From a virus, in the IMG/VR virus record IMGVR_UViG_3300025133_000609, positions 1 to 23,362 of that record: DNA of 23,362 bases, one strand, 5' to 3'. This document shows positions 1,913 to 21,423 of the stretch, piece after piece; position 1 is the first letter of the stretch; every line of letters starts with the position of its first letter. Position numbers and translations under genes: made by a program. Below the pieces are notes generated by a model. That model saw only the letters and a program-made list of their open reading frames with translations. It was not told the origin of the DNA and searched no databases.

Positions 1913-4900
1913 CTACTCGACTTCTGGCGGGCCGAGGTAGTTGTCTTCAGCCTCGTCGTCAAGCGATGACGCCGGTGCCATGAATCTCTGGGGGCGATAG
2001 ACCGGGCGGTCGTCTCTCGGCAGGAACCGATCGAGTTCCCGCTCGATTCGTCGGAGATCGCGCTGGTAAACCTCCAACGGGTCCTTCTCCAACTTCATCG
2101 AGTAGGTGCCGGCCATGACCGCAAGGATCCGTTCGGCCATCGACTCCGACCATGCGCTGACCTCTCGCGGGTCTTCCTTCGGGACCATCGCCCGCTGGTA
2201 GGCGCCGAGGAGGCTGTTCAACGGCGTGTCCCTGAAGAACGCGACCCGGCGCGGCGCGTCCGTCACGAACCCGGTGCCGTCTCGCTTCTTCACTGGCCTG
2301 ATCTGCATCAACTCCAGGAAGTACGGGGGCATGATCTGGCGGGCGTCGTCGTCGGTCCACCCGACCTTGTTCCCGATCCAGATGACCTCATCCGGCGCTG
2401 CGCGTCCGCCGAGGTTCTGATTGAAGAAGTACGCGCCGATCTTCCATGGGACATTGAGATCGCCAGCCGCAGCGGCCCGTTCCTCATCGAGCAGCGCCCC
2501 GCCAGCGACGAGATCGAACTTCTTTTTGGCGGACTGGACGGCATCGAACATCGGCGCACCGCGCACCGACATCGCCTTCGCGTGACCCATGTTCAGCAGG
2601 ATCGATGGCTGCGCGAACGTCGGGATCTGCCGCAGGTCCGACTCCGTGAACTCTCCGCGGTTGTAGATGCTCAGGAGTGTCGCGAGGTAGGCGTAGGCCC
2701 CTGGGTTCTTCGCCGCCCACTGAGCCTGTAGCCGGAGGTTGCCGGCGTCCCAGGTCCAGAAACCAAACACGCGGCGCATGACCTCGCGCTCGAGCGGTGT
2801 GATCTCGGAGTAGTTCCGAAGCGCGTCGTCAGTCGTCCGCGTGGCGACCGCGCGGCTCGCTCCCTTGCGGCGCATCCCGAGGTAGATGGCGGCGCGGGCC
2901 TGAGTCTCCAGCCACCCATTCATCTCAGAGGTGATCCGCACCCATCCCGGCGCCCCGATCGCCCCGACGACCCCGCCAATGCCAACGGCGTCGAAGGGGG
3001 TTCCGAGGAGCGAGCCGGCGAACGCCCCTGCCGACCTGGTAGGGGTGATGGCGCCAGCTGCGGCCCCGATCATCGCGCCAGTCGAGCCGGCGACCCGAGC
3101 CCCCGCCGCCGCTCCAATCGCAGCGCGCTTGAGGGCCTTCGGGAGTTCCTGCTTCGCGGCTTTCGCGGCCAGCGCGGCGAGGTCGGCCTTGCGGGTCGAC
3201 GATGTCACCTTGCCGAGCATCCCGGTCCAGAGATCCGTGGAGCCCGGAGCGCTTTCCACCATCGCAGACGCGAGGGTCGTCCAGACCCCGCCCTTTGCGG
3301 CATCCGCCTCGATCTCAAGCCCTGGAGCGAGCTCGACCCGCCCGCGCTCAGGAGAACTCGCCGTGACGGGCTGCTTCCCGCCGAACAGCCGCAGGTCGCG
3401 AGCGGCGGACGAGACCGGGTCGACAAGCCCCTGCTCCTGGCGGAATGCCGAAGTGAAGGCTGCGGAGAGGATCCCGTCCTCGAGCATCTCCTGCTCGATC
3501 TGTCGCAGCGTCACGAGATCGCCGTCGAGCCTGATCATGAAATCCGGGGAGACGCCGGAGGCGACCATCGCGCCGATCGTGTGAGCCACTGGATCCAGCG
3601 CGGCCGACCCGGCAGCCTGCAGCCCGCCTGTGACATTGCCGACGACGTTGACGAACGTGTAGCCGGCGGTGCTGCGGAACGTGGTCAGCATGACCTTCGC
3701 CCACGAGTGGACGGCGTCGAAGACATCGAGGGTCGCAGAAGCCGCCTTCGCCCCGCCGACAACGCTCTTGTCGAAGATGGTCCGGCCCTGCCCCTTTCCA
3801 GCGATGAACTTCTGCAGGCGATCGCGCATCGATCCGCCGTCCGAGTACCACCAGTTGATGTACTCAGCGACGGGCTTCGGCAGGTAGACCGGGGCCTCAA
3901 GCGCAGCACCCGCCTCCTTGACGTAGACGTAGACCTTCGACTTCGCCTGAGCGGAGAGGTCGCGGATTATCTCGTGCTCAAGCACTTCGCGCGCCGTTTT
4001 GCCCTGCTCGAGCAGAGAGATGATCATGTCGTGCTGAGGCTGGAGCTCTTCGGGGAGGCTGACCTTGTTGTGGGCCCCGACGAGCGGACCGCGGTCGACC
4101 CGTGCGTAGCCGATGGCGGATGCGTGAAGGTCGCCCTCCCATCCGAACTGCTGCGCGATGCGCTGACCAGCTGGGAACCGAAGCCGTAGGTCGGCGATGA
4201 AGTGGCGGTCGGCGAGCGCGGAGTCCGCTTCACGTAGGAACTGGGCCAGCATCGGAACGGGGTCGGTGACCAGAGATGCGATCTCACGGCCGTTCCGCTC
4301 CAGGAAGGCCTCGACGAACTCGTCCGTCGGCGCCCCCTTGCCGCCCGATCGGTCCCACGCGCTTTTCACGGCCATCGCGAACAGGCGGCGGCGTTCCGCT
4401 GCAACGCCTACATCCTGCAGGTCGACCATCCCGGGGGCCAGGTAGGTCGGGCGGACAGGCTCGCCCCGGAGCGCCTTCTGCATCGACAGACCGTCAGCCC
4501 TGACGAGCTTCGGGAGCAGCAGGTCGAGGTCCAGGTTCGCGACGACCTCGTCGACACTCGTGCCCTTGACCCCCTGAGCGACGAGATGCTCGTGGAGCTC
4601 GCGGGCGTAGGTCCGAAGGACGCCGCGGAGCCCTTCGGCCGCAGCGCGAACCTTATCGTCGACCGCCTTCTTCTTCGGGAGCCGCTTCGCAGTCGCCATC
4701 TTCACGGCGCTTGCCCGCTCGCGAGGGGTCAGATCGGTGAACTCGCGCATGGAACGAACCCGGGCGAACAGGCCGTTCGCTTCATCCAGGTTCCGCTTCG
4801 CTGCACGGTGTGCGTCTACCGCGTAGTCCCGAACGAACTCTGAGATGTCCCCCTTCGGCTTGACTCGCCTGAGACCGTCCGCGGCGCGCGCGTACTCAGC

Positions 4901-7852
4901 AGCAGTCCGCGACGCATCCCTCTTCGCCTTCGCGAGAGCGTCGTCGGCATCCTTCAGCATTGCCCTGACAGCGCCGAGTTCGCCGCGCACGTCCGGCAGC
5001 ATTCCCACGTCGCCGCTGGCAGTGATCCGCCGCTCCGTAGAGAGCAGGAGGTTCTCGCGCCGACGGAGCTCGTTCATCGAGTGCGCGCGCCGCTCTGTCT
5101 TCAACTTCTCGACGTGCTCCGTCTCGATCTTGTGCTTGATCAGAAGTGCGTCAACGTCCTCAGACGCGACCAGGTACTTGTCCCACCGCTCCATCGACTT
5201 GCTCTTGTCGCCGAGCGCCTTTTGGACACGGAGGCGTGCGCGGAGCGCGGCATCCTCTGCAAGGGCGAACACCCTTTGCGAGTCGAAGCCCATTTCGTCG
5301 CCGAGCGCGGTGAGTGCCTCAAACGCCTCATCAAGCTTGCTGGAATCCAGGGCATCTCGAATCCCGTCCATGTCGGCGATGTCGCCGGCCATCCTGGCGA
5401 CCTGCGCGAGAGTCGCCTTGACGGCGGAATCCTTCGCCCGCTCCTGAGCAGCGTCAGACACCGCCCGCATCCTGGCGACGCCTTCAACATGCCGCCCAGG
5501 CGTTGGCGACTGCAGGAGTTCGGCGATCTCGTCGACCTCATCCCGAAGGTCGCGCATCCCGCGCATGAACCCCTTTGCGGCGGCGATCTCCATGACGAAC
5601 GATGGGCCGTCGGTGGTCACGGACAGATCGGACAGATCGCTCATCTTCGCCGCAGCCGCGAGAGAGCGGTGCTGGTCCCCGTCCATGACGAGAGAGTGGG
5701 CCTTCATCCGGCTCTCCTTGTCGGGGTGGTTCCGAAGGAATCCTGCGATGAAGGCTCGCCGCCTGTCTGCGAGAACCTCTGTCGATCGGTTGTTCCTGCG
5801 CAGATCGTCGACAAGCTCCGCGAAGGCCGCAGGGTGCATGAGCTCCCCGCGCTGGTAGGCGTGCCAGATCCCCACGCTGTTCGGGCCGGCGAGAGGCTGC
5901 GCCTGGTGCGCGCCGAAGGTCAGGGCAGACGTGGTCCGGCGGATTCGCTCGAGGCTCCACGGGGTGCTGCGCGAGCCGATGAACTCCCGCCCCGGCTTGT
6001 ACTTGCTCATCCACTGCATGACGCGAGACGCGACACGGAGCCGGGCCGCGTCTGTGACCCCACTCATCCGCTTTGAGACATCGGCAGAAAGCCGCGCCGT
6101 CCCGTCCGCATTCATGCCGATGAGCGTCTTCCCCTCCTTGTTCGCAGTTCGCAGCGCATCCATGAACGCCCGCTCACTGTCCTCGAAGGCGAGTGCGCGC
6201 ATGTCCGCGACCGCCTCTGCAGACTTCGGGTTCGCTCCGACGGGCACATCGGGGATCGTCTCGTCGAGCCACTTCGACCATGCCTGGAGCGTCCGCGAGT
6301 CCCCGCGAAGCTGAACCTCGCCGCGGAAAGCAGCATCCACCAGCTGGACGAAATCCTTCCCGAACTGCTGCTGCGCCTTGACGCCGTTCGCTGCGGCGTT
6401 GTTCCTCGTCGGGATCTGCGACAGCACCCCCTGGCGAGCAGCCTGCAACTCCTCGAGTTCGACCGCCAGGTTCGCCCTGGTGGCGTCATCGGCCAGCGCC
6501 ATGTCGTTCGCCACATCCTTGATCTGGTCGTCGACCTTCTTGAGCTCCTTCTGGCCGAGGCGGGCCAGCGTGGTGAACTCCTCCTCCGAAGCAGCGCGCA
6601 CAGCGTCTCCTGTGGCCTCCAGGGCTTCGTCGAGAGCGCCGGCCCCACGCCGCGTCAACTGAGTCCCGAGCCTGCGGGACAGGACCCCTGGGGCCTGGAT
6701 CAGCGCCGTCGGGTCGAAGATGGCAGTCCCGATGAACCCGATGAACTCCTTTGCACCCTCCGACCCTTGCTCAATCGCCTCGTTCATCGCGTACTGCCAA
6801 CGGCGAACGCGGGCCTCCTCCGACTCGCCGTCGATGCCGGGATGAACGACACTCCCGAAGGCAGTGCTCGCAGCGACGGACAAGGCCTGCGCCAGCGGAC
6901 TGGCATCCGTGAAAGCGTCCCGAAGCGGGGCGGTGGGGTCCAGCCACGCGGGGAGTTCCCCCGTGTAGGCGAAGTCGACCATCCCTTCCTCGACCGGATC
7001 CACGAGAGTCTCGTCGAGCTCCGCGATCAAGTTCTCCACGTCTTTCTGATTGAGCGCCTCGTCGCCGGTCTTCCCGGCGTTTGCCGCCCTGCCGAGCAGC
7101 ACGCCCATGATGTCGCCGACGTACCCGTAGACCTCATCCCCGATCGGCTGCGCATCGAGGTAGGTCTCCTCGAAGGCCTGCTGGCCGAGCTCCTCGATGT
7201 CCCGGTCCTGCATGATGAACGATGCCGGGCGGCGCCCAGACGCGACGACCTCCTTGTACTGGTCCGCGGTCAGCATCAAGGGGTCTGGGTCGTTCTCCAG
7301 AGCGAACGAGACCTCCCGCTGCAGCGCATCCATCGTCGCCGCCTTCGACGCCAGCGCCAGCTGAGGGCGCCAGGTCACGTTCTCAAAGGTTCGGATCGCA
7401 TCCTGGAATGCGTTGACCCCATAGGAGACGGCGATGCTTCCGCCCTTTGCGAGCGCAGACTTCGCCTCGCTCAAACGGAGTTCCTTGTCGGCGACCTCGC
7501 CCATTCCCTCACCGAGCCGGTCCAGAGCAAGGAAGCCCGCCGCAAGCCGGTCGCCTACCAGCGGGACACGGAGCTTCTCGGCCAACCGAACAGCGTCGGC
7601 AAGCCTCTCGCCCTTCAAGGTCTTCGGGAGAGTCGCGATCTCCTCAACCCGCGTGATGAACTTGCCGGGGGTGGGGTCGATCGACTGAAGGCGCTTGAGC
7701 CTGTGGACCGTCAGCGCCGCCGGAGTGACGACGAAATCCTCATCGTCGAAGGCCGAGCCGAGTTCGACTTCCGGCTCCGAATCCGGCTGCACAGGGTCGG
7801 GCTCAAAACTCGACCCAGCAGCCGGCACAGCCGAATCGGGCTCAAACGGCAC
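1913..7852 (-). CDS. Giant internal virion (DNA-ejection) protein, 1979 residues
   Basis: A quarter of the window. It starts at GTG 7852, right after the TAG of the previous gene, with AAGG 8 bases upstream. The N-terminus (about 1-40) is acidic and proline-rich. Most of the protein is helical, with strong coiled-coil character near 885-1000. Near 1320-1405 is a block resembling large phage ejection proteins ('YLPKPVAEYINWW', then 'WAKVMLTTFRSTAGYTFVNV' and V-G-N). Near 1575-1637 is an A/G-rich stretch with repeated small-x-x-x-small spacing ('AAIGAAAGARVAG', 'GAMIGAAAGA'), like a membrane-inserting glycine zipper. Near 1690-1710 is 'RRVFGFWTWDAGNLRLQAQ', resembling the F-P-F-Y-T-W type motif of phage internal proteins. 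No lysozyme or transglycosylase catalytic motif was recognised. Its place after three internal-protein-like genes fits the role of T7 gp16-like cores. A tape measure is less likely because tail-tube and chaperone genes are absent. Confidence 0.82.
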   Translation of the reverse strand: MPFEPDSAVPAAGSSFEPDPVQPDSEPEVELGSAFDDEDFVVTPAALTVHRLKRLQSIDPTPGKFITRVEEIATLPKTLKGERLADAVRLAEKLRVPLVGDRLAAGFLALDRLGEGMGEVADKELRLSEAKSALAKGGSIAVSYGVNAFQDAIRTFENVTWRPQLALASKAATMDALQREVSFALENDPDPLMLTADQYKEVVASGRRPASFIMQDRDIEELGQQAFEETYLDAQPIGDEVYGYVGDIMGVLLGRAANAGKTGDEALNQKDVENLIAELDETLVDPVEEGMVDFAYTGELPAWLDPTAPLRDAFTDASPLAQALSVAASTAFGSVVHPGIDGESEEARVRRWQYAMNEAIEQGSEGAKEFIGFIGTAIFDPTALIQAPGVLSRRLGTQLTRRGAGALDEALEATGDAVRAASEEEFTTLARLGQKELKKVDDQIKDVANDMALADDATRANLAVELEELQAARQGVLSQIPTRNNAAANGVKAQQQFGKDFVQLVDAAFRGEVQLRGDSRTLQAWSKWLDETIPDVPVGANPKSAEAVADMRALAFEDSERAFMDALRTANKEGKTLIGMNADGTARLSADVSKRMSGVTDAARLRVASRVMQWMSKYKPGREFIGSRSTPWSLERIRRTTSALTFGAHQAQPLAGPNSVGIWHAYQRGELMHPAAFAELVDDLRRNNRSTEVLADRRRAFIAGFLRNHPDKESRMKAHSLVMDGDQHRSLAAAAKMSDLSDLSVTTDGPSFVMEIAAAKGFMRGMRDLRDEVDEIAELLQSPTPGRHVEGVARMRAVSDAAQERAKDSAVKATLAQVARMAGDIADMDGIRDALDSSKLDEAFEALTALGDEMGFDSQRVFALAEDAALRARLRVQKALGDKSKSMERWDKYLVASEDVDALLIKHKIETEHVEKLKTERRAHSMNELRRRENLLLSTERRITASGDVGMLPDVRGELGAVRAMLKDADDALAKAKRDASRTAAEYARAADGLRRVKPKGDISEFVRDYAVDAHRAAKRNLDEANGLFARVRSMREFTDLTPRERASAVKMATAKRLPKKKAVDDKVRAAAEGLRGVLRTYARELHEHLVAQGVKGTSVDEVVANLDLDLLLPKLVRADGLSMQKALRGEPVRPTYLAPGMVDLQDVGVAAERRRLFAMAVKSAWDRSGGKGAPTDEFVEAFLERNGREIASLVTDPVPMLAQFLREADSALADRHFIADLRLRFPAGQRIAQQFGWEGDLHASAIGYARVDRGPLVGAHNKVSLPEELQPQHDMIISLLEQGKTAREVLEHEIIRDLSAQAKSKVYVYVKEAGAALEAPVYLPKPVAEYINWWYSDGGSMRDRLQKFIAGKGQGRTIFDKSVVGGAKAASATLDVFDAVHSWAKVMLTTFRSTAGYTFVNVVGNVTGGLQAAGSAALDPVAHTIGAMVASGVSPDFMIRLDGDLVTLRQIEQEMLEDGILSAAFTSAFRQEQGLVDPVSSAARDLRLFGGKQPVTASSPERGRVELAPGLEIEADAAKGGVWTTLASAMVESAPGSTDLWTGMLGKVTSSTRKADLAALAAKAAKQELPKALKRAAIGAAAGARVAGSTGAMIGAAAGAITPTRSAGAFAGSLLGTPFDAVGIGGVVGAIGAPGWVRITSEMNGWLETQARAAIYLGMRRKGASRAVATRTTDDALRNYSEITPLEREVMRRVFGFWTWDAGNLRLQAQWAAKNPGAYAYLATLLSIYNRGEFTESDLRQIPTFAQPSILLNMGHAKAMSVRGAPMFDAVQSAKKKFDLVAGGALLDEERAAAAGDLNVPWKIGAYFFNQNLGGRAAPDEVIWIGNKVGWTDDDARQIMPPYFLELMQIRPVKKRDGTGFVTDAPRRVAFFRDTPLNSLLGAYQRAMVPKEDPREVSAWSESMAERILAVMAGTYSMKLEKDPLEVYQRDLRRIERELDRFLPRDDRPVYRPQRFMAPASSLDDEAEDNYLGPPEVE

Positions 7853-9529
7853 CTACTTCACCTTGCCATGCACGCCGCCGACGACGACCGAGTCGCCGAC
7901 GCCGATGTCGCCCCGGGCTTTCGCAGCATCCATCTCGGCCTCGGTAGCGAACGACGGCGGTCCGCCGCCGCCACCCTCTCCGTTGATCTCTCGAAGAAGC
8001 TCATCCCTCGCATCGGCAGCGGGCCCCTTCAGCCCCATCGAGCGCAGCGCATTCGACGCCCGCCGACGGTCCTCTGCGCCGCCAATGAACGCCCCATCGA
8101 TCAGCGCCTTCATCGCCCGGAAAGTAGCTGCGTCCACGTCCTTCAGCACTTTGCGCTCGAGGTCGAGCCGCTTGATTCGGTTGGACTCAGACCTGGCCGG
8201 CGAATGGGTGTAGCTGTGGGTCGGGGTCTTCTTCGTCTCGCGCCGCCCGCCCTCTTCCTCCATCGCGAAGCCGTGCTTCTGCGTCGCCTTGTGACCACCG
8301 ATCAGGGTCTCGATGATCTTCGATGGGTTCGCAGACGGGGTCCGCCGCATCGTCTCGTTCACGGCTTCGTTGATTCGCGCGACCTCTGCCGGGTCATCAA
8401 CCCCGTAGGAGCGGATCGAGTCCGCGAAGTCGATGTCGGCTGCGACCGCCTCCTCAGCCTCCTTCTGCGCCGCCTTGTTCCGCGAGAGGAAGTCTTCGAT
8501 CTGCCGCTTGTTGACCTCCCGCTCGAACTCGAACGCTCGCGAGACGATCCCATCGAGGTCTTCGGGGACCTGGCCGCCGAACGCCTCGAAGACCGATGCG
8601 TCTCCCGTGCGCCGGTAGCGAAGGACCGCGGTCGCCAGGGCAGTCGGGTCAAGGATCGTCCCCGGGTCGGCCCCGATCTCCACAGCTGGGTTCTTCAGTC
8701 CCCCCGGCAGATCCGCGAGCAAGGCAGAGGCTTCTCGCTCTTCCCGAAGGGCGCCCTCAAGGCCGACGTAGGCGTCTCGGAGCGGATCATCGCCAGATGA
8801 AATCTCAGGGGCCCTCCCCCGCATTCCGCCGATTGCAGAGAACGCCTGATCAAGCCGGCCAGGGTCCGTCACCCCAGGCGAGGCGGACGGGGACGCGACG
8901 CGAGAAGGTCCTTCCTCGCCGGCCACCACGGCGTCCCGCGGGAGCTCCCCGCCGCCGGTCCGCGACAGTATGTCGCCGCGAATGGCAGAGAGCCGACCCT
9001 CGGTTTCGCCAGAACTCCGCTGAAGCTCCTGGAACGCCTCTCGGGTCGCCTGCTCTGCGAGGAGATCGTCCTCAGCATGGGCGAGGGCGCGCTTTGCAGC
9101 GTGCGCCTGGGACCCGGCAGCCGCCCGATCCTCAGCCTGCCCCTGGAACTCTGCGGCGATATCAGAGCCGGGAATCGGCTGAACGCCACTGCCGCCGCCT
9201 GTCGCAGCACCCCCGCCGGACGTGCGCGACCTGCGAGCAGTAGCGGCAGAGCCGAGCAGATCTGCCATCGTCGGCTCGAGCGGGGACTGCCGGCCGGTCA
9301 GCGAACCAGCGACAGCGGCATCCTGCGCCGCCAGTCCTCGCTGGAAGTCGAGTTCCCGCCGCTGCTCCTGCGCCGCCTGCTGCTCCATCAGTTGCTCTTT
9401 GGCGGCGATCTGCTGCCCAGCCTGGATCCCGCGGACGATGCCGCCGAGAACGTCAGCCAGCCCGCCAGAGACCACGTCTCGACGGAGGGCGCCCGGGTCG
9501 GCGTACATGTCGGGGTGCTGGACAGGCAT
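7853..9529 (-). CDS. Internal virion (ejection) protein, 558 residues
   Basis: Starts at ATG 9529, joined to the upstream stop as TGATG with GGAG about 11 bases before. Residues 15-75 look like a long helix rich in A, Q, E and R ('GIVRGIQAGQQIAAKEQLME'). A glycine/serine-rich low-complexity stretch follows around 95-120, then a long helical A/E/R-rich body. The last 35 residues differ: 'FATEAEMDAAKARGDIGVGD' followed by S-V-V-V-G-G-V-H-G-K-V, a short helix plus an SH3-like beta hairpin I have seen at the ends of other phage internal proteins. The stop (TAG) directly abuts the GTG of the 1979-residue protein, so the two are probably made together. By size order (152, 248, 558, 1979) it matches the middle component of podovirus ejection cores such as T7 gp15, but I see no direct sequence likeness to gp15. 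No enzymatic motif was found. Confidence 0.75.
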   Translation of the reverse strand: MPVQHPDMYADPGALRRDVVSGGLADVLGGIVRGIQAGQQIAAKEQLMEQQAAQEQRRELDFQRGLAAQDAAVAGSLTGRQSPLEPTMADLLGSAATARRSRTSGGGAATGGGSGVQPIPGSDIAAEFQGQAEDRAAAGSQAHAAKRALAHAEDDLLAEQATREAFQELQRSSGETEGRLSAIRGDILSRTGGGELPRDAVVAGEEGPSRVASPSASPGVTDPGRLDQAFSAIGGMRGRAPEISSGDDPLRDAYVGLEGALREEREASALLADLPGGLKNPAVEIGADPGTILDPTALATAVLRYRRTGDASVFEAFGGQVPEDLDGIVSRAFEFEREVNKRQIEDFLSRNKAAQKEAEEAVAADIDFADSIRSYGVDDPAEVARINEAVNETMRRTPSANPSKIIETLIGGHKATQKHGFAMEEEGGRRETKKTPTHSYTHSPARSESNRIKRLDLERKVLKDVDAATFRAMKALIDGAFIGGAEDRRRASNALRSMGLKGPAADARDELLREINGEGGGGGPPSFATEAEMDAAKARGDIGVGDSVVVGGVHGKVK

Positions 9530-10275
9530 CAGCGGTTGAACTCCGAGAAGCCGGCCGACCGCTGGCGCTGCTCGCGCCGCCGCCGCTCCTCCTCTTCCTC
9601 CGCAGGCGTCTTGAAGCGGCCGATGCCGCCGCCGCCGGAGCGCTGCGAGAGGGTCGACGCGAAGGAGTCCGTGCCGCTGACCATCGGGTCAGACCCGGAT
9701 TGCTCGCCGGTGAAGCCGCCGCCTTGAGGCTGGGATGGACTCCCCGCGCTGACCCCCGGGACGCTCCCGCCGCCGCCCGCTGCCATGCTGCCGATGGAGG
9801 AGGTCGTGTCGATCAGGAACTTCATGACGTTGAGCGCGTTCTCACCGTCGGTGACGTTCGTGCGCGGGGTCATCAACCGCGCCATCTCCGCTGCCTCGAA
9901 GCCGGCGATGTCCCGGTCGAACTGCGAGCGAGCCCGCTCGTCGTCGAGCGCGGAGGCCTGAGCGGCGCGGCCCGAAGCGGCAGAATGCAGCGCAGAGCCG
10001 AGCCCGGTTCCGCTGACTCCGAGCCGCCGAGCGAGTTCCTCATTCCGGCCGAAGCCTGCCGCCGCCTGGTTGCTGCGAACCGCCCTCCGTTCGCCGAGGA
10101 AGTCCGACAGTCGGGCCTGCCGCTGAGGGAGCACGAACCGGTCGTACTTCTCCTGTGGGGTCAGGGGGCGACCGCCGACCTGCTCACCGTAGTCCGTGGT
10201 GAAGCCGCCGCCCGGCTCAGAGGTTGTGGACGGAAGGCCGACGCCGGTCTCATTGGAGACGTTCCGATCAGGCAT
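9529..10275 (-). CDS. Small internal virion (ejection) protein, 248 residues
   Basis: The frame is open from 10569, but the likely start is ATG 10275. GAGGGAGG lies about 6 bases upstream, and an 8-base overlap with the previous gene fits the operon. The N-terminal 45 residues are G/T/E-rich. A helical region (about 45-140) contains 'ARSQFDRDIAGFEAAEMARL', then a short hydrophobic stretch ('NALNVMKFLIDTTSSIGSMA', about 148-167). A disordered G/S/Q-rich linker follows, ending in a charged tail 'EEEEERRRREQRQRSAG'. The upstream 152-residue protein has the same order of parts and a nearly identical 'ARAQFDR' motif, so the two may be paralogues. Composition and position suggest a T7 gp14-like ejection protein that may contact membrane. 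No enzyme motif is visible. Confidence 0.72.
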   Translation of the reverse strand: MPDRNVSNETGVGLPSTTSEPGGGFTTDYGEQVGGRPLTPQEKYDRFVLPQRQARLSDFLGERRAVRSNQAAAGFGRNEELARRLGVSGTGLGSALHSAASGRAAQASALDDERARSQFDRDIAGFEAAEMARLMTPRTNVTDGENALNVMKFLIDTTSSIGSMAAGGGGSVPGVSAGSPSQPQGGGFTGEQSGSDPMVSGTDSFASTLSQRSGGGGIGRFKTPAEEEEERRRREQRQRSAGFSEFNR

Positions 10276-10726
10276 TGCCGGCCTCCCTCTTCTTCCGCTT
10301 CTCTTCCTTGTCGATCGCCTTGCCGGAAGCCACGCCGAGCGTGACGCCGGAGCCCGCGAGGCCGGAGACGGTGCGGAACGCATCCGCGACCTTCTGCTGC
10401 TCTGCGATGAGCTCTTGCAGCCGGGCGCGATCGAACTGGGCGCGAGCCTGAGCCTCTTCGCCCATGCTGACGCTGCGCTCTCTGCCGAGGACATCGCCGA
10501 GAGCCATCTGCTGCTGTGCCTGAGCCGCTGCCCGATCGCCGAACATGCCGCCGCGAGAGACCGGCCCACCGATGAGGCCGACGTTCGCGCCGCCCTCCTG
10601 GCGGTTCAGCGGTTGGCGGGCTGCAGCCAGTCGACGGTTCGACCGCTGCGAGAGAGCCTCCCCGATCCCGCCGCGAAAGCGCCGTTCGAGCGAGGGGTCA
10701 GACAGGCTGGAGAAGTCAAGCGGCAC
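10268..10726 (-). CDS. Small internal virion (ejection) protein, 152 residues
   Basis: Two GTG starts are possible. The GTG at 10732 has its AGGA only one base away. The GTG at 10726 has the same AGGA at a 7-base spacing, so I choose 10726, giving M-P-L-D-F-S-S-L. The upstream gene's TAG stop forms part of that ribosome site. The protein is R/A/Q/G-rich. Residues about 65-115 are helical and contain 'EEAQARAQFDRARLQELIAE'. A G/V/A-rich hydrophobic segment follows ('VSGLAGSGVTLGVASGKAI'), then a lysine/arginine tail ('DKEEKRKKREAGNA'). The layout matches the next gene (248 residues) and resembles small podovirus ejection proteins by composition. Function is inferred from context. Confidence 0.7.
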   Translation of the reverse strand: MPLDFSSLSDPSLERRFRGGIGEALSQRSNRRLAAARQPLNRQEGGANVGLIGGPVSRGGMFGDRAAAQAQQQMALGDVLGRERSVSMGEEAQARAQFDRARLQELIAEQQKVADAFRTVSGLAGSGVTLGVASGKAIDKEEKRKKREAGNA

Positions 10727-10733
10727 AGTCACA

Positions 10734-10738
10734 TCCTA
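10734..10738 (-). promoter_or_regulatory. Ribosome binding site fused to upstream stop; decides the start of the 152-residue protein
   Basis: Reads TAGGA on the minus strand. TAG (10736-10738) is the stop of the 217-residue gene, and AGGA lies 7 bases before GTG 10726 but only 1 base before GTG 10732. This spacing favours the 10726 start. Confidence 0.6.
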
Positions 10739-16916: not shown

Positions 16917-16922
16917 CTCCTT
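16917..16922 (-). promoter_or_regulatory. Ribosome binding site deciding the start of the decoration candidate
   Basis: Reads AAGGAG on the minus strand, 6 bases before ATG 16910. It is fused to the TAA stop (16921-16923) of the major capsid gene and rules against the longer start at 16940. Confidence 0.78.
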
Positions 16923-18039
16923 AGCTCGCGGCCGAGCCACCGAAGTCGGTGACTCCGAGGCGCTTGAGCGAACGGGTGGCGGGGAACCCAGCGAACGGGA
17001 TGTTCCACTGGACGGCGGCCTGCTGGGCGCCGAGGTCGTAGGGACCTTCGAGGTTGAAGTCGTGGTTCGGGACCAGGATGAGGTGGACGCCGGGGATGGA
17101 CTCGGCGCCGCGGGCCTTCGGATTCTTGCCCGGAACCGCGAAGTGCTCCTTCTTCATGCTGAAGGACGACTTCTTCGGACGCCGCTTGCCGGTCGTCGTC
17201 AGGAAGTAGGTCCGCCCGGTGCCGGCGAGCACGTCCTCGATGACCACGGGGACGCCGCGGTACATCAGGGACTCGAAGCCGGTGTCGGCGAGGGTCAGGT
17301 CGAGGTCCTGCTCCGACGGGAGGAGCGTGTCCTCGTAGAGGAAGTAGACGTCCTCGTCGGTCGGCATGATGTCGGGGCGGGTCGTCCCGTTCTTGCTGCA
17401 CTCGAAGAGCACCGTGCGCCAGGTCGACAGGCCGTTCGTCGCGAACGACGTGATCTGCCCGTAGCGGTTCCGCCAGTTCTCGAAGGAGCCCTGGGAGATG
17501 CCGGCGATCGAGGCGTTGGCCGTGGCCTGCTGGGCTTCGGTGAGGGTCTGGATGAACTGCTGGAACCCGTACATGTCGTTCGCGCCGGCCGAAGCGCCGG
17601 TCTTGTCGCCGAACAGCTGGGCGGTGAACTCCTTCGCGGCGGCTTCCGCAGCGATGGCCTTCTTCGTGTTCATCAGGTTCAGGACCTGGAGCTCGCTCGA
17701 CGAGTTCTTCTCCATCTCGATCTTGCTGAGCTTGATGAACGCGCGGGTGATGCCCTCGTGGGTCGCGGCATCCCAGCGAGCGGTGTCGGGTCCGTCCTCG
17801 GGCGTCGCCGAGTAGGTGCCGAACTCCGTGTGGGACTCGACGTTGGTCGAATCCTGGATGACCACGGGGCAGTGGTAGTCCGCGCCGACGGAGCGGTACC
17901 GAACCGCGCCCCCGTTGAACATCCACATCGACGTGGGCTTCGCGGTGGCGATCTCGAAGGCGAGATCCTTCCGCATGGCGACCATGGTGGTCGAGTAGAG
18001 GCGGTTGAGCGCCTGGTTCATCGTCGTGGCAACAGCCAT
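16921..18039 (-). CDS. Major capsid protein (HK97-type fold)
   Basis: A 372-residue protein from ATG 18039, with AGGAG 8 bases upstream fused to the scaffold's TAG stop. The region 'YGQITSFATNGLSTWRTVLF' through 'PDIMPTDEDVYFLYEDTLLP' and 'LADTGFESLMYRGVPVVIED' is the characteristic P-domain/A-domain pattern of one large HK97-fold coat family (a P-D-x-I-x-x-T segment, then a-D-x-G-F-x-s-L-x-Y-x-G-x-P-V, then a Y-F-L strand). The N-terminal 40 residues are helical, and residues about 110-150 ('SELQVLNLMNTKKAIAAEAA') look like the spine helix. No N-terminal protease-cleaved delta domain is fused, which fits the separate scaffold-like gene upstream. It lies between scaffold and decoration candidates. 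Confidence in role is high. Confidence 0.9.
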   Translation of the reverse strand: MAVATTMNQALNRLYSTTMVAMRKDLAFEIATAKPTSMWMFNGGAVRYRSVGADYHCPVVIQDSTNVESHTEFGTYSATPEDGPDTARWDAATHEGITRAFIKLSKIEMEKNSSSELQVLNLMNTKKAIAAEAAAKEFTAQLFGDKTGASAGANDMYGFQQFIQTLTEAQQATANASIAGISQGSFENWRNRYGQITSFATNGLSTWRTVLFECSKNGTTRPDIMPTDEDVYFLYEDTLLPSEQDLDLTLADTGFESLMYRGVPVVIEDVLAGTGRTYFLTTTGKRRPKKSSFSMKKEHFAVPGKNPKARGAESIPGVHLILVPNHDFNLEGPYDLGAQQAAVQWNIPFAGFPATRSLKRLGVTDFGGSAAS

Positions 18040-18047
18040 CAGTCAGT

Positions 18048-18052
18048 CTCCT
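18048..18052 (-). promoter_or_regulatory. Ribosome binding site of the major capsid gene, fused to scaffold stop
   Basis: Reads AGGAG on the minus strand, 8 bases before ATG 18039. Together with the preceding T it contains the TAG stop (18051-18053) of the scaffold gene, so termination and capsid initiation are physically coupled. Confidence 0.75.
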
Positions 18053-18893
18053 ACGCGCCCCGCCGCAGTGCGGCGAATTCGCGTCTCACGACATCTTCCA
18101 TGCTTTCGCTCCCCCGACCTTGCTTCTGCGAGGTGCGGGGCTTCGGCGAACGCGCGGCTTCCGTCTTCTCTGCGCGCTTCTGGGCGCGCGCCTTGTCGAG
18201 TTCCGCCTTCGCCGACCGAGCCGCGAACTTGAGCGCGAGGGTCGGGTTCGTGCGGGCGAGTGTGCTGAGGTCGTCGTCGTTGTCGATGATGAGGCCCACC
18301 AGTCGCCCCGCCTCGGGATCGTCGAACTCCGCAGGGAGCGTCTCCGAATCGAGCATCGAGTCGTACGCTTCGCGTACGGTCTGGTGGAACTTGCGACGCT
18401 CGAGGTCGGGAGCGATGGGCTTCAGGCGCTCATCAACGGCGCCCGCAAGCTGTCGCTTGACCTCCTGCTTCGCGTAGAAGGCGACGATCTCCCGCGCGGA
18501 AGCCCCTTCGGGCGGCTCCTCTGCTTCGGCTTCGGGCTCGGGAGCCTTCGGCTGCTCGACCTCTTGCGGACGGGCGATGCCGTCCAGCCGAGCCATCATC
18601 GTCTCCATCATCTTGTGGAGGTTCGCGTTCTCCTCTCGGAGCGCCTTGATCGCGTCGGGCTCTTCGACTGCCGGAGCAGCCTCCTCCTCTTCCGCGACCT
18701 CGGCCGGAGCCTCGTCTTCGACGACTTCCTCGTCCGGCTCGTCATCGTCAAGGGCAAAGAAGTCGTCACGCTCCTCGGCGTACTCGGCGAAAACCTTCGA
18801 CACTTCGTCCGCGAACTCGGTGTCTTCGGTGATCTGCGAGTCGACGGAGGGCGCTTCAGGCTCCGGTGCGCTCGGGCTGACTTCAGGATCCAT
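18051..18893 (-). CDS. Scaffolding protein candidate (280 residues, acidic, coiled coil)
   Basis: The first 80 residues are strongly acidic and proline-rich ('DDDEPDEEVVEDEAPAEVAE'). A coiled-coil helix follows at about 80-105 ('AIKALREENANLHKMMETMM'), then a second acidic linker (111-130), a helical middle ('AREIVAFYAKQEVKRQLAGA', about 133-152) and a basic C-terminal helix ('MEDVVRREFAALRRGA', 265-280). Acidic disordered start, coiled coil, basic C-terminal helix and a place directly before the major capsid gene are the classic marks of phage scaffolding proteins, whose basic tail binds the coat. The ATG at 18893 has a modest TAGG site 8 bases upstream and follows the largest gap of the window. 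No protease motif is seen. Confidence 0.82.
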   Translation of the reverse strand: MDPEVSPSAPEPEAPSVDSQITEDTEFADEVSKVFAEYAEERDDFFALDDDEPDEEVVEDEAPAEVAEEEEAAPAVEEPDAIKALREENANLHKMMETMMARLDGIARPQEVEQPKAPEPEAEAEEPPEGASAREIVAFYAKQEVKRQLAGAVDERLKPIAPDLERRKFHQTVREAYDSMLDSETLPAEFDDPEAGRLVGLIIDNDDDLSTLARTNPTLALKFAARSAKAELDKARAQKRAEKTEAARSPKPRTSQKQGRGSESMEDVVRREFAALRRGA

Positions 18894-18947
18894 GAAGGAA
18901 ACCTACACACCGTCCGGGCACATTGTGAAGCGCTTCTTCACAATCTC
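18894..18947. other. Largest intergenic gap (54 bases), between zinc-ribbon and scaffold genes
   Basis: It holds the 9-bp hairpin at 18922-18944 and a weak ribosome site for the scaffold gene. No clear -35/-10 pair and no T-tract after the hairpin are visible in the minus direction. It is locally AT-rich compared with the rest of the window. Confidence 0.7.
18922..18944 (-). repeat. Perfect 9-bp inverted repeat with 5-base loop (operator or RNA hairpin)
   Basis: The arms are ATTGTGAAG (18922-18930) and CTTCACAAT (18936-18944), separated by five bases. The inner GAAGCGCTTC (18927-18936) is itself a 10-base palindrome, so two pairings compete. The hairpin begins 3 bases after the zinc-ribbon/winged-helix stop codon. 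It lacks a T-tract, so a simple factor-independent terminator is unlikely. It could be a protein-binding operator, an mRNA-stability or processing stem, or part of a promoter region for the capsid genes. Confidence 0.7.
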
Positions 18948-19511
18948 TCAGCCGGGGAGGGCGTACATCCCTGGCTTCGGACGGACCAGAATGCCGGCGG
19001 TCGCCGCCTTGAGCAGGCACTTCCTGACCGTCTGGTACGGAGCCGTGCTGACGGAGCGGGCGAGGGCGTCGTAGTCCATCGGCGCCTTGTGGGCGCGGAG
19101 GAGCTTGACCACTTCAGGGATGACCTTCATCTGCACAGCGGAGAGGTCTTCGTTCGGGTCGAAGGTCACCTCGCCCTGATCGCTGGTGGGGTCGATCTTC
19201 CCCTTGTTGGCGATCCCGTACTCCTCGCGAGCCTTCTCCCAGCCCTTGCGGTTGGTGAACTCGATCCCGTTCATCTCGGGCGGGTGCCGGCCATCGCTGG
19301 AGTCGAACGTCCCGCTGTGATGGGTGCCGAAGCAGTCGATGTGGAGCGACTCGGGCCGGATCAGCCTCTTCGGCTTGTTCGACCTGCACTTCGGGCAGCC
19401 GACCTTTGTGAAGCCGCGCTTCGCAGCCTCGATGTTGGCTCGCATCCCCATGTGGATGACGAACTCGTGCTTGCACTTCGGGTGGCTGCAGCGGAAGTCG
19501 TAGTCAGGCAT
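18948..19511 (-). CDS. Zinc-ribbon plus winged-helix-like protein (187 residues)
   Basis: Starts at ATG 19511, with GGAGGA 4 bases upstream and an 8-base overlap with the portal stop; the longer frame from 19598 lies inside the portal. Residues 1-44 form an FmdB-like zinc ribbon: 'MPDYDFRCSHPKCKHEF' with C8 and C13, then C39-P-K-C42. Residues about 130-187 resemble a winged helix ('VVKLLRAHKAPMDYDALARS', 'TVRKCLLKAATAGILVRPKP', G-M-Y-A-L-P): three helices then a hairpin wing. The middle (45-130) has no family I recognise. Zinc-ribbon proteins of this sort occur between portal and scaffold genes in some phages, without a known role. A DNA- or RNA-binding function is inferred. It is immediately followed by a perfect inverted repeat, which could be its target. 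Confidence 0.8.
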   Translation of the reverse strand: MPDYDFRCSHPKCKHEFVIHMGMRANIEAAKRGFTKVGCPKCRSNKPKRLIRPESLHIDCFGTHHSGTFDSSDGRHPPEMNGIEFTNRKGWEKAREEYGIANKGKIDPTSDQGEVTFDPNEDLSAVQMKVIPEVVKLLRAHKAPMDYDALARSVSTAPYQTVRKCLLKAATAGILVRPKPGMYALPG

Positions 19512-21423
19512 TCGGTCCTCCGATCCCTCCGACGGCTGACAGAGACGGCGGGCCAGGCTGTGGCTGGGGCGAACCGCCACCCTGACCTCCCGTTGCATCC
19601 ACGGATGCTGGGCGTCGGACGCCGTCTGTGATCTGCCCGGCGATGTCCCCGATCGGGCCCATGAAGGCTTCGGGGTTCTCGCCGTAGATGTCGAAGATGC
19701 GCTTCAGCGTGTTCTGGATGATGTCGGGCGGGACCGCGCCGACCTGAACCGCTGGCGTGAAGTTCTGGACGATGAGGTTGATGGCGCTGACCAGAGAGAT
19801 CAGCTGCTCCTGCTGCGCGCCCGGGTTCCGCGGCTCCATCGAAGACGCCTCGACCTGCACGTCGAACCGGCCCTGGATCTTCTGCGGGTCGAAATCGAGG
19901 AACTCGGGGCCTTCCGGTCCGGCGATCCGCATCTGCTGCGAGGCAGAGGACATCTGGCGGAAGATCGCCATCTGCTTGTCCATGACTCGCTCGAGCCAGT
20001 CCGAGAAGACCTCCTGGCGAACGCCCATCCGAGCGCGCGATGCCCGGTCGGCGATGCGCGCCTCGGTCGCGGTGTCTGCTCCTGCCGCGTTCCCGCGCTG
20101 CACGGAGTCGACGGTGCCGACCTCCCTCATGGACTGCTGGAGCAGGCCGACGGCGAACGGCGTCGAGTCGGGGGCCTTCAGTTGAGGCATGACCGCGAAC
20201 GCACTGCGCACGTCGTCGAGGTTCGTCATCAGCGCTTCGGCGTCGCCCTCGCCTTCGAGCCAGTTCTCGATCTCCTCCTGCGAGGCGATGCCGGCGGCGA
20301 CGAGCAGCTTGATCCGACTGTTGAGCCGGTGGTTCCGCAGGACGTAGTGGATGATCTCGTTGAGCCGGGTCGCGAGCGGGCGGATCGTCGCCAGGTCGGA
20401 GACCGTGGTGCTGAACCAGCTGCCCGGCACGTCCGAGAAGCGGAGCGCGTCGTAGGGCCAGCCCGGCATGATCATCGGGTCCTCGATCGAGCCGATGACC
20501 TTGAGCCCGTCGGCCTTCCCTCCAGGAGAGAGGAACCACGTCGTGAACCTGCGGCGAGCGCCTCGACTCTTGACCCAGTGGTGGAGCTCGAAGACCGTGA
20601 CCGAGTCGTTCTCCGTGAACCGCTCCGCGTCCAGGTTCCCGATCTTCTCCTCGGGCATCGGGATCGGCCGGACGACCGTGTCCGCCTCGACTTCGTCGGG
20701 GATCTTGAACTTCGGGGTGTCCCTGAGCTCCTCGAGCGGAACGACGTAGCGCTCCATGACCCACGGGCTGTCACTGAGGTCCGCGTAGCCTGCGGGCTTG
20801 AAGAGGTTCCATGGCGCGACGCGGCGCATGGCCGGAAGCGCCTCCTCCTCCATGAACGGCACGTCATCCCGGTCCGCGAGCTTCCGCGCGGCCTTCTGGA
20901 CCTCCGGGTCCATGCCGGCCAGATCGCCCGGCTTCCCCTCGCTCCCGTCTTCGTAGTCGGCGACGTGGCGCGTGTTGACGGCATCCGGGCTGTCCCAAAC
21001 GGTCTTCCCGATCCCGTGACCGCAGAGCAGGACATCGAGCACGATCTGCCGCGTGCGCGGGGTCGACCCGTTCCGCTTCCAGAAGTAGTTCCCGGCTGCG
21101 CCCATGACCCGCTGCTGGCCCATCTGCTCACGCTGAGTCGGGACGAACGTGAACATGGGGCGCCGCGGCAGCATCCCGGCGACGATCGTCTGAGCCTCGC
21201 TGAAGAGGTAGTTGATCCAGGGCCGATCGCTCGCGTAGGTGTCCATCGGGGAGAACGGCGCGGCTGCATCGTTCTCGTGCCAGGTCGGCTGCCCCTGGTA
21301 CTCCCGCCAGATCCCGCCCCAGAACTCCTCGTGGGGGCGCATCTCGTGAAGAGCGGCGCGGAACGCTCGGCTCCACTCCTCGATCTCGTCTTCGCTGACT
21401 CGTCGGTGTCGGATGGCTGCCAT
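19504..21423 (-). CDS. Portal protein (639 residues)
   Basis: The dodecameric DNA gate at one capsid vertex, onto which the terminase docks. The ATG at 21423 is joined to the terminase stop as TGATG, with AGAGGA about 9 bases upstream. Recognisable pieces in order are an N-terminal helical part with 'PWINYLFSEAQTIVAGMLPR' (about 69-88), the crown/wing region with 'LDVLLCGHGIGKTVWDS', 'RRVAPWNLFKPAGYADLSDS', and near 440-480 'ADTATEARIADRASRARMGV' followed by 'FSDWLERVMDKQMAIFRQMS'. That last part is the long stem helix block typical of portals of podoviruses and relatives, where T-A-T-E precedes a helix. The C-terminus has a long helix and a G/Q/P-rich disordered tail. Position right after the large terminase confirms the assignment. 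Confidence 0.88.
   Translation of the reverse strand: MAAIRHRRVSEDEIEEWSRAFRAALHEMRPHEEFWGGIWREYQGQPTWHENDAAAPFSPMDTYASDRPWINYLFSEAQTIVAGMLPRRPMFTFVPTQREQMGQQRVMGAAGNYFWKRNGSTPRTRQIVLDVLLCGHGIGKTVWDSPDAVNTRHVADYEDGSEGKPGDLAGMDPEVQKAARKLADRDDVPFMEEEALPAMRRVAPWNLFKPAGYADLSDSPWVMERYVVPLEELRDTPKFKIPDEVEADTVVRPIPMPEEKIGNLDAERFTENDSVTVFELHHWVKSRGARRRFTTWFLSPGGKADGLKVIGSIEDPMIMPGWPYDALRFSDVPGSWFSTTVSDLATIRPLATRLNEIIHYVLRNHRLNSRIKLLVAAGIASQEEIENWLEGEGDAEALMTNLDDVRSAFAVMPQLKAPDSTPFAVGLLQQSMREVGTVDSVQRGNAAGADTATEARIADRASRARMGVRQEVFSDWLERVMDKQMAIFRQMSSASQQMRIAGPEGPEFLDFDPQKIQGRFDVQVEASSMEPRNPGAQQEQLISLVSAINLIVQNFTPAVQVGAVPPDIIQNTLKRIFDIYGENPEAFMGPIGDIAGQITDGVRRPASVDATGGQGGGSPQPQPGPPSLSAVGGIGGPNA
19516..19521 (-). 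promoter_or_regulatory. Ribosome binding site deciding the start of the zinc-ribbon protein
   Basis: Reads GGAGGA on the minus strand, 4 bases before ATG 19511. It favours the 187-residue protein that begins with the zinc ribbon over a longer frame. Confidence 0.75.

Follow-up and report, generated by a model that had tools for sequence, protein, structure and literature searches.

A predicted regulated leaderless promoter, with an inverted repeat around its -35 element, inside a phage head operon

Why should a gene for a small protein of a nucleic-acid-binding fold type, followed at once by an inverted repeat, stand in the middle of a phage head operon? The locus lies in a 23,362-base virus record, analysed at its full length and called the window here, in which the head genes are all on the minus strand in the order terminase, SU10-type portal, 187-aa protein, scaffold-like protein, major capsid protein, further genes and SU10-type adaptor. 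The portal ORF, assigned by family match, occupies 19504-21423 (minus strand), and its end is overlapped by the start of the 187-aa gene (18948-19511, minus strand), which runs from an ATG at 19511 to a TGA stop ending at 18948. The place given to this gene by the original prediction, between portal and scaffold, is therefore real. Downstream follow the scaffold-like ORF (18051-18893, minus strand; 280 aa with an acidic N-terminal part) and the major capsid gene (16921-18039, minus strand; PHROG 9953, major head protein). A scaffold function is suggested by place and composition, and profile searches of Pfam and PHROG gave this protein no clear family match. The 54-base gap between the 187-aa gene and the scaffold gene has a GC content of 52%, compared to 66% for the window.

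Elsewhere in the window, two minus-strand ORFs (10268-10732 and 9529-10569) overlap by about 300 bases in the region 10268-10735, so that either one start is wrong or a gap of 166 bases is left, and neither ORF matches Pfam or PHROG at E 0.01. Positions 1913-7852 encode a 1979-aa protein, for which Pfam and PHROG gave no matches at E 0.01 either. No tRNA was found in the six loci scanned.

Searches of viral contigs with four head-region proteins (zinc-ribbon, portal, capsid and terminase) yielded three lineages and no others: lineage W, consisting of the window and two near-identical contigs; lineage B, with three near-identical contigs (L005-L007); and lineage C, a single contig (L008). The order terminase, portal, zinc-ribbon gene, scaffold, capsid, adaptor is identical across W, B and C, and the zinc-ribbon protein of the window is 55% identical to that of C and 43% identical to that of B. 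A search of genomes with the portal gave no match, and none of 50,697 phage records matched the 187-aa protein; its homologue in L008 gave one weak 38-residue match against named phages. No close named relative of this phage group turned up in the phage records searched. In a near-identical relative of the window, a promoter-like TTGACT-N18-TACCGT and a small inverted repeat, CCGTCC/GGACGG, were seen before a gene that has a Shine-Dalgarno motif and resembles a small terminase subunit (L016, 400-551). A small cysteine-rich protein is also encoded between terminase and portal in the podophage MW202803 (L031:2852-3169), where it is annotated as DNA-directed RNA polymerase, probably owing to its cysteine ribbon alone.

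Profiles, alignment and an AlphaFold2 model divide the 187-aa protein into an FmdB-like zinc ribbon (residues 1-51), a middle region of low confidence (about 53-117) and a C-terminal winged helix (122-187). Residues 1-51 resemble the FmdB-type ribbon (Zn_ribbon_8, PF09723) in all three lineages, and cysteines 8, 13, 39 and 42 are invariant. The Zn_ribbon_8 scores in the three lineages were 20.5, 23.6 and 17.8 bits, all below the curated cut-off of 34.4 bits. The zinc ribbon of the original prediction is thus upheld by its four retained cysteines and its likeness to FmdB, but not by formal Pfam membership in any lineage. Beyond its low score, the protein departs from FmdB through its additional middle region and its winged helix, and its first cysteine pair is spaced wider than is typical of FmdB ribbons. 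Over residues 1-51 to 1-58 the region matched ribbons of genome-encoded proteins as well as a viral model named FmdB, and the nine loci found when the zinc-ribbon alignment was searched against genomes shared the ribbon only. The middle region, and neither the ribbon nor the winged helix, contains an RHPPEM run that is invariant in the three lineages.

The AlphaFold2 model was built from the three sequences only and has a mean pLDDT of 67.6, with low confidence in the middle and a confident C-terminal part. There, helices at 124-141, 147-153 and 159-172 and a strand at 182-184 have pLDDT values of about 79-91, so that three helices and a wing are both present in residues 122-187 of the model. 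Compared with winged helices, these residues matched 9j89_A best (Z 11.1, rmsd 1.5, 63 aligned), with further structural matches to Rpa2 (Z 10.4 and 10.1), SelB (2pjp, 9.4) and BlcR (9.2). Thus, the model supports the C-terminal winged helix that had been proposed from the sequence; its ligand is not settled by the fold, because the matches include DNA-, RNA- and protein-binders. AbiEi_4 (PF13338) matched weakly (15.0, 12.6 and 16.2 bits, all below the curated cut-off of 25 bits), the matches being confined to the C-terminal 23-29 residues in each lineage. A sequence search of solved structures returned nothing convincing (best E 0.08), Pfam and PHROG profile searches matched the 187-aa protein to no virion or assembly family, and a literature search combining FmdB, phage and zinc ribbon found no papers, a statement that extends to that search only.

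The inverted repeat is as originally described: two perfect 9-bp arms with a 5-base spacer at 18922-18944, reading on the minus strand ATTGTGAAG, five bases, CTTCACAAT, and beginning 3 bases past the stop of the 187-aa gene. Its description as the sole such structure in the window holds for arms of at least 8 and a spacer of at most 10. In thirty Markov-1 copies of the window, distinct loci with arms of at least 9 averaged 2.1 per copy, so that one such repeat per window is unremarkable; when the 54-base gap itself was shuffled 20,000 times, a fraction of 0.00065 held such a repeat, in what was a post hoc test. The motif TGAA-N7-TTCA has one copy on the coding strand of the window, which is the dyad site, and the looser TGAA-N7-TTCR has one extra copy, at 3657 of the reverse complement, within the portal gene.

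If protein and palindrome belonged together, relatives that keep the gene should keep the palindrome as well. Both other lineages retain the 187-aa gene, but the perfect palindrome is gone from both and a degenerate dyad is found on the same axis; the comparison thus goes halfway against the proposed link, whose strong form fails, and a perfect palindrome is rejected as a family-wide mark. Watson-Crick pairs on the axis of the window number 9/9 in W, 5/9 in C (one more with G-U) and 6/9 in B, and two dyad pairs are changed on both sides among the three lineages. With G-U counted, 77.8% of cells pair, compared to 29.6-44.4% after sliding by 1-3 columns, and 53 of 500 shuffles reached the observed value. 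With three rows only, this conservation is a hint and not proof. The arms differ in their invariant positions, 3/9 in the left arm and 6/9 in the right, which is the holder of the -35 element described below; the left half in lineage B shares bases with the stop codon of the gene before it, whose TGA may be kept for another reason.

The alignment from the dyad to the scaffold ATG is gap-free in the three lineages, and TTNNCA-N18-TAGNNT-N6-ATG is common to all of them. The -35-like hexamer is TTCACA in the window (18924-18929, minus strand; TTCGCA and TTTTCA in the relatives) and falls within the repeat's right arm. The -10-like hexamer is TAGGTT (18900-18905, minus strand; TAGTTT and TAGGGT in the relatives), 6 bases before the scaffold ATG and directly preceded by an invariant GTG. 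Within the hexamers 8/12 positions are invariant, compared to 14/46 in the rest of the gap (Fisher 0.026, post hoc). The pattern GTGTANNNT-N6-ATG occurred once at the scaffold start in each of seven records, which represent three lineages only, and the reversed pattern did not occur; one extra match was present in each of two near-identical records of a single lineage. By itself, TANNNT-N6-RTG was found twice in the window against 1.85 expected, and is thus neither rarer nor commoner than chance. The -35 hexamers agree with TTGACA at 5, 4 and 4 of 6 positions with a spacer of 18 bases; a sigma-70 consensus scan at 9/12 did not list the scaffold site.

None of the three scaffold genes has GGAG, GAGG or AGGA within 20 bases of its ATG, whereas all three capsid and all three adaptor genes do; the Shine-Dalgarno motif is also missing from 2/3 portal genes, 1/3 zinc-ribbon genes and 1/3 copies of gene 15885. 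The first T of TAGNNT stands 12 bases before the scaffold start codon in every lineage. As reported in PMC3160421, leaderless genes in high-GC groups are marked by a TANNNT whose first T lies about 12 bases ahead of the start codon, and by this TANNNT-N6-ATG spacing rule the transcription start is predicted at the first base of the scaffold ATG (18893, minus strand). Leaderless SigA-type promoters of this kind are described for TA-led genes of Actinobacteria and Deinococcus-Thermus (PMC3160421) and for M. tuberculosis (PMC3898074). The present site is like them in the position of TANNNT, the high GC and the absent Shine-Dalgarno motif, and is set apart from them by its place in a phage head operon ahead of a scaffold gene, by its weak -35 within a dyad and by a start that is predicted. 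Together, these features make a leaderless promoter before the scaffold gene probable, and the TANNNT element, the GC content and the leaderless starts suggest a host among Actinobacteria or Deinococcus-Thermus.

A similar layout is found elsewhere in these phages. Genes for Xre-type regulators, 48% identical, lie upstream of the terminase genes in lineage B (L019:2729-3188) and lineage C (L020:5321-5780). The L019 gene starts behind TTGACA-N16-TAGCCT-N6-ATG, which is the extra match mentioned above, and the L020 gene behind TTGACA-N16-TAAACT-N6-ATG; the upstream regions of both genes have TAGACGCGCG in common. The phages thus appear to reuse the arrangement TTGACA-N16-TANNNT-N6-ATG with a consensus -35, compared to which the scaffold -35 is weaker; the Xre sites act as an internal positive control for the predicted layout. 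The Xre promoters contain no TGAA-N7-TTCR, no shared inverted repeat and no dyad like that of the scaffold gene. No Xre gene was found in the lineage of the window, where the contig ends early.

Counted from the predicted transcription start at the ATG, the centre of the repeat falls at -40, and the repeat includes the -35. In the reading that we favour, RNA polymerase with the main sigma factor of the host would recognise TTNNCA-N18-TAGNNT and begin at the first base of the scaffold ATG, so that scaffold and capsid would be translated from a leaderless mRNA; presumably both would also be read from the terminase-portal read-through transcript. A poor -35 with a long spacing, set within a dyad centred at -40, makes it probable that the promoter is controlled. 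The region around -40 is where class II activators and many repressors attach. The controller might then be a dimeric DNA-binding protein at the dyad, either a class II type activator, as Mu Mor and GIL01 gp6 are, or a repressor, and as repressors also bind at such sites the sign of control may be either. On balance we think it likely that a regulated internal late leaderless promoter for scaffold and capsid lies inside the head operon; that the dyad is the site of a regulator has slightly less than an even chance. The start site, the leaderless translation, the dyad as operator and the identity of its binder are all things that we infer from sequence.

Phage promoters with a regulator site at this position are known. 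The Mor dyad of the Mu middle promoter Pm is centred at -43.5 and overlaps the -35 (PMC4287176), and the gp6 site of the GIL01 late promoter P3 lies over its -35 (PMC6182141). The putative site described here is like both in lying over the -35 of a phage promoter, at -40 compared to -43.5 for Mor, and unlike both in that the candidate regulator would be a zinc-ribbon/winged-helix protein; no Mor/C or LexA match was present among the window proteins scanned. Cluster O mycobacteriophages, as PMC4351075 describes them, carry 17-bp dyad repeats in more than 30 copies, with SigA promoters. They resemble the window in having dyads in short gaps, and probably also in a high-GC host, whereas the window has a single copy.

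The nearest candidate to bind the dyad would be the winged-helix protein of the neighbouring gene, which the same operon would yield immediately beforehand. The connection between protein and site is based on adjacency, co-occurrence in the three lineages and a nucleic-acid-binding fold type, and other head genes co-occur too. We regard it as unlikely that this protein is the regulator at the dyad. The late-gene switch or autoregulation of the original prediction has gained a putative regulatory site before the scaffold gene in a sharper form, with the -35 of a predicted leaderless promoter in the repeat and its centre at -40, but the tie between protein and site is one that we infer.

Rather than regulating, the 187-aa protein may be a part of head assembly or packaging, with ribbon and winged helix contacting protein or DNA in the procapsid or motor while the dyad is served by another regulator, such as an Xre protein or a host factor. 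We give this a substantial chance, somewhat short of even, and an assembly role is as plausible for the protein as a direct link to the dyad, or more so. Its gene stays in the head cluster in all three lineages, the invariant RHPPEM falls outside both domains, another small cysteine-rich gene adjoins the portal in the remote podophage MW202803, many winged helices contact proteins (cullin WHB is among the structural matches), and lineages B and C do have Xre genes. Against it speak the lack of any virion or assembly family match in Pfam and PHROG, the absence of a scaffold-like dyad from the Xre promoters and, as far as its early-ending contig reaches, the failure to find an Xre gene in the window's own lineage. 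The palindrome may instead be a chance feature, with the promoter alone, or the start region alone, being conserved. This we consider rather unlikely: the Markov copies and the loss of the perfect form from the relatives favour it, but the shuffling probability of a repeat inside the gap, the pairing on the same axis and the two pairs changed on both sides do not.

Two further readings place the function of the repeat in RNA. A hairpin in the read-through transcript could stabilise, process or translationally control the scaffold mRNA, with the zinc-ribbon protein perhaps an RNA-binder. In the window, the 23-base repeat by itself reaches -8.9 kcal/mol (z -3.9), and RNA-binders such as SelB are among the structural matches. 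In the two relatives, however, the homologous stretch of 23 bases gives only 0 and -1.8 kcal/mol. Folding of the entire gap is no stronger than that of its shuffles (z -1.1, 0.2 and -0.1 in the three lineages), in the window the minimum-energy fold of the entire gap lacks the hairpin, and Rfam at its gathering threshold gave no match. Moreover, with a transcription start at the ATG the repeat would lie outside that transcript. An RNA element is thus disfavoured and seems to us improbable. An intrinsic terminator that reduces read-through from the terminase-portal part would fit the position of the repeat right after a stop codon. The stem lacks a T run, it is not one of the four sites listed by a terminator scan and, as noted, the hairpin energy is lost in the relatives; we reject this reading, which we hold to be very improbable.

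Compared with these explanations, we continue to favour a regulated leaderless promoter before the scaffold gene. Capsids need far more copies of scaffold and capsid protein than of portal or terminase. If the prediction is true, this copy ratio could be set in a simple way by a regulated leaderless promoter placed inside the operon, between portal and scaffold, and leaderless initiation would serve structural proteins that are highly made. The predicted promoter combines known parts in a new way and is more sharply defined than the site first described. For a ribbon/winged-helix protein without a match in 50,697 phage records, the dyad site offers a concrete and cheap test of its role. More doubtful still than a direct link to the dyad is that such proteins may form a new family of phage late-gene regulators, with an FmdB-like ribbon and a winged helix, which would be encoded within the head operon, bind the dyad at -40 and switch on or autoregulate the leaderless promoter, thereby setting the dosage of scaffold and capsid apart from that of terminase and portal.
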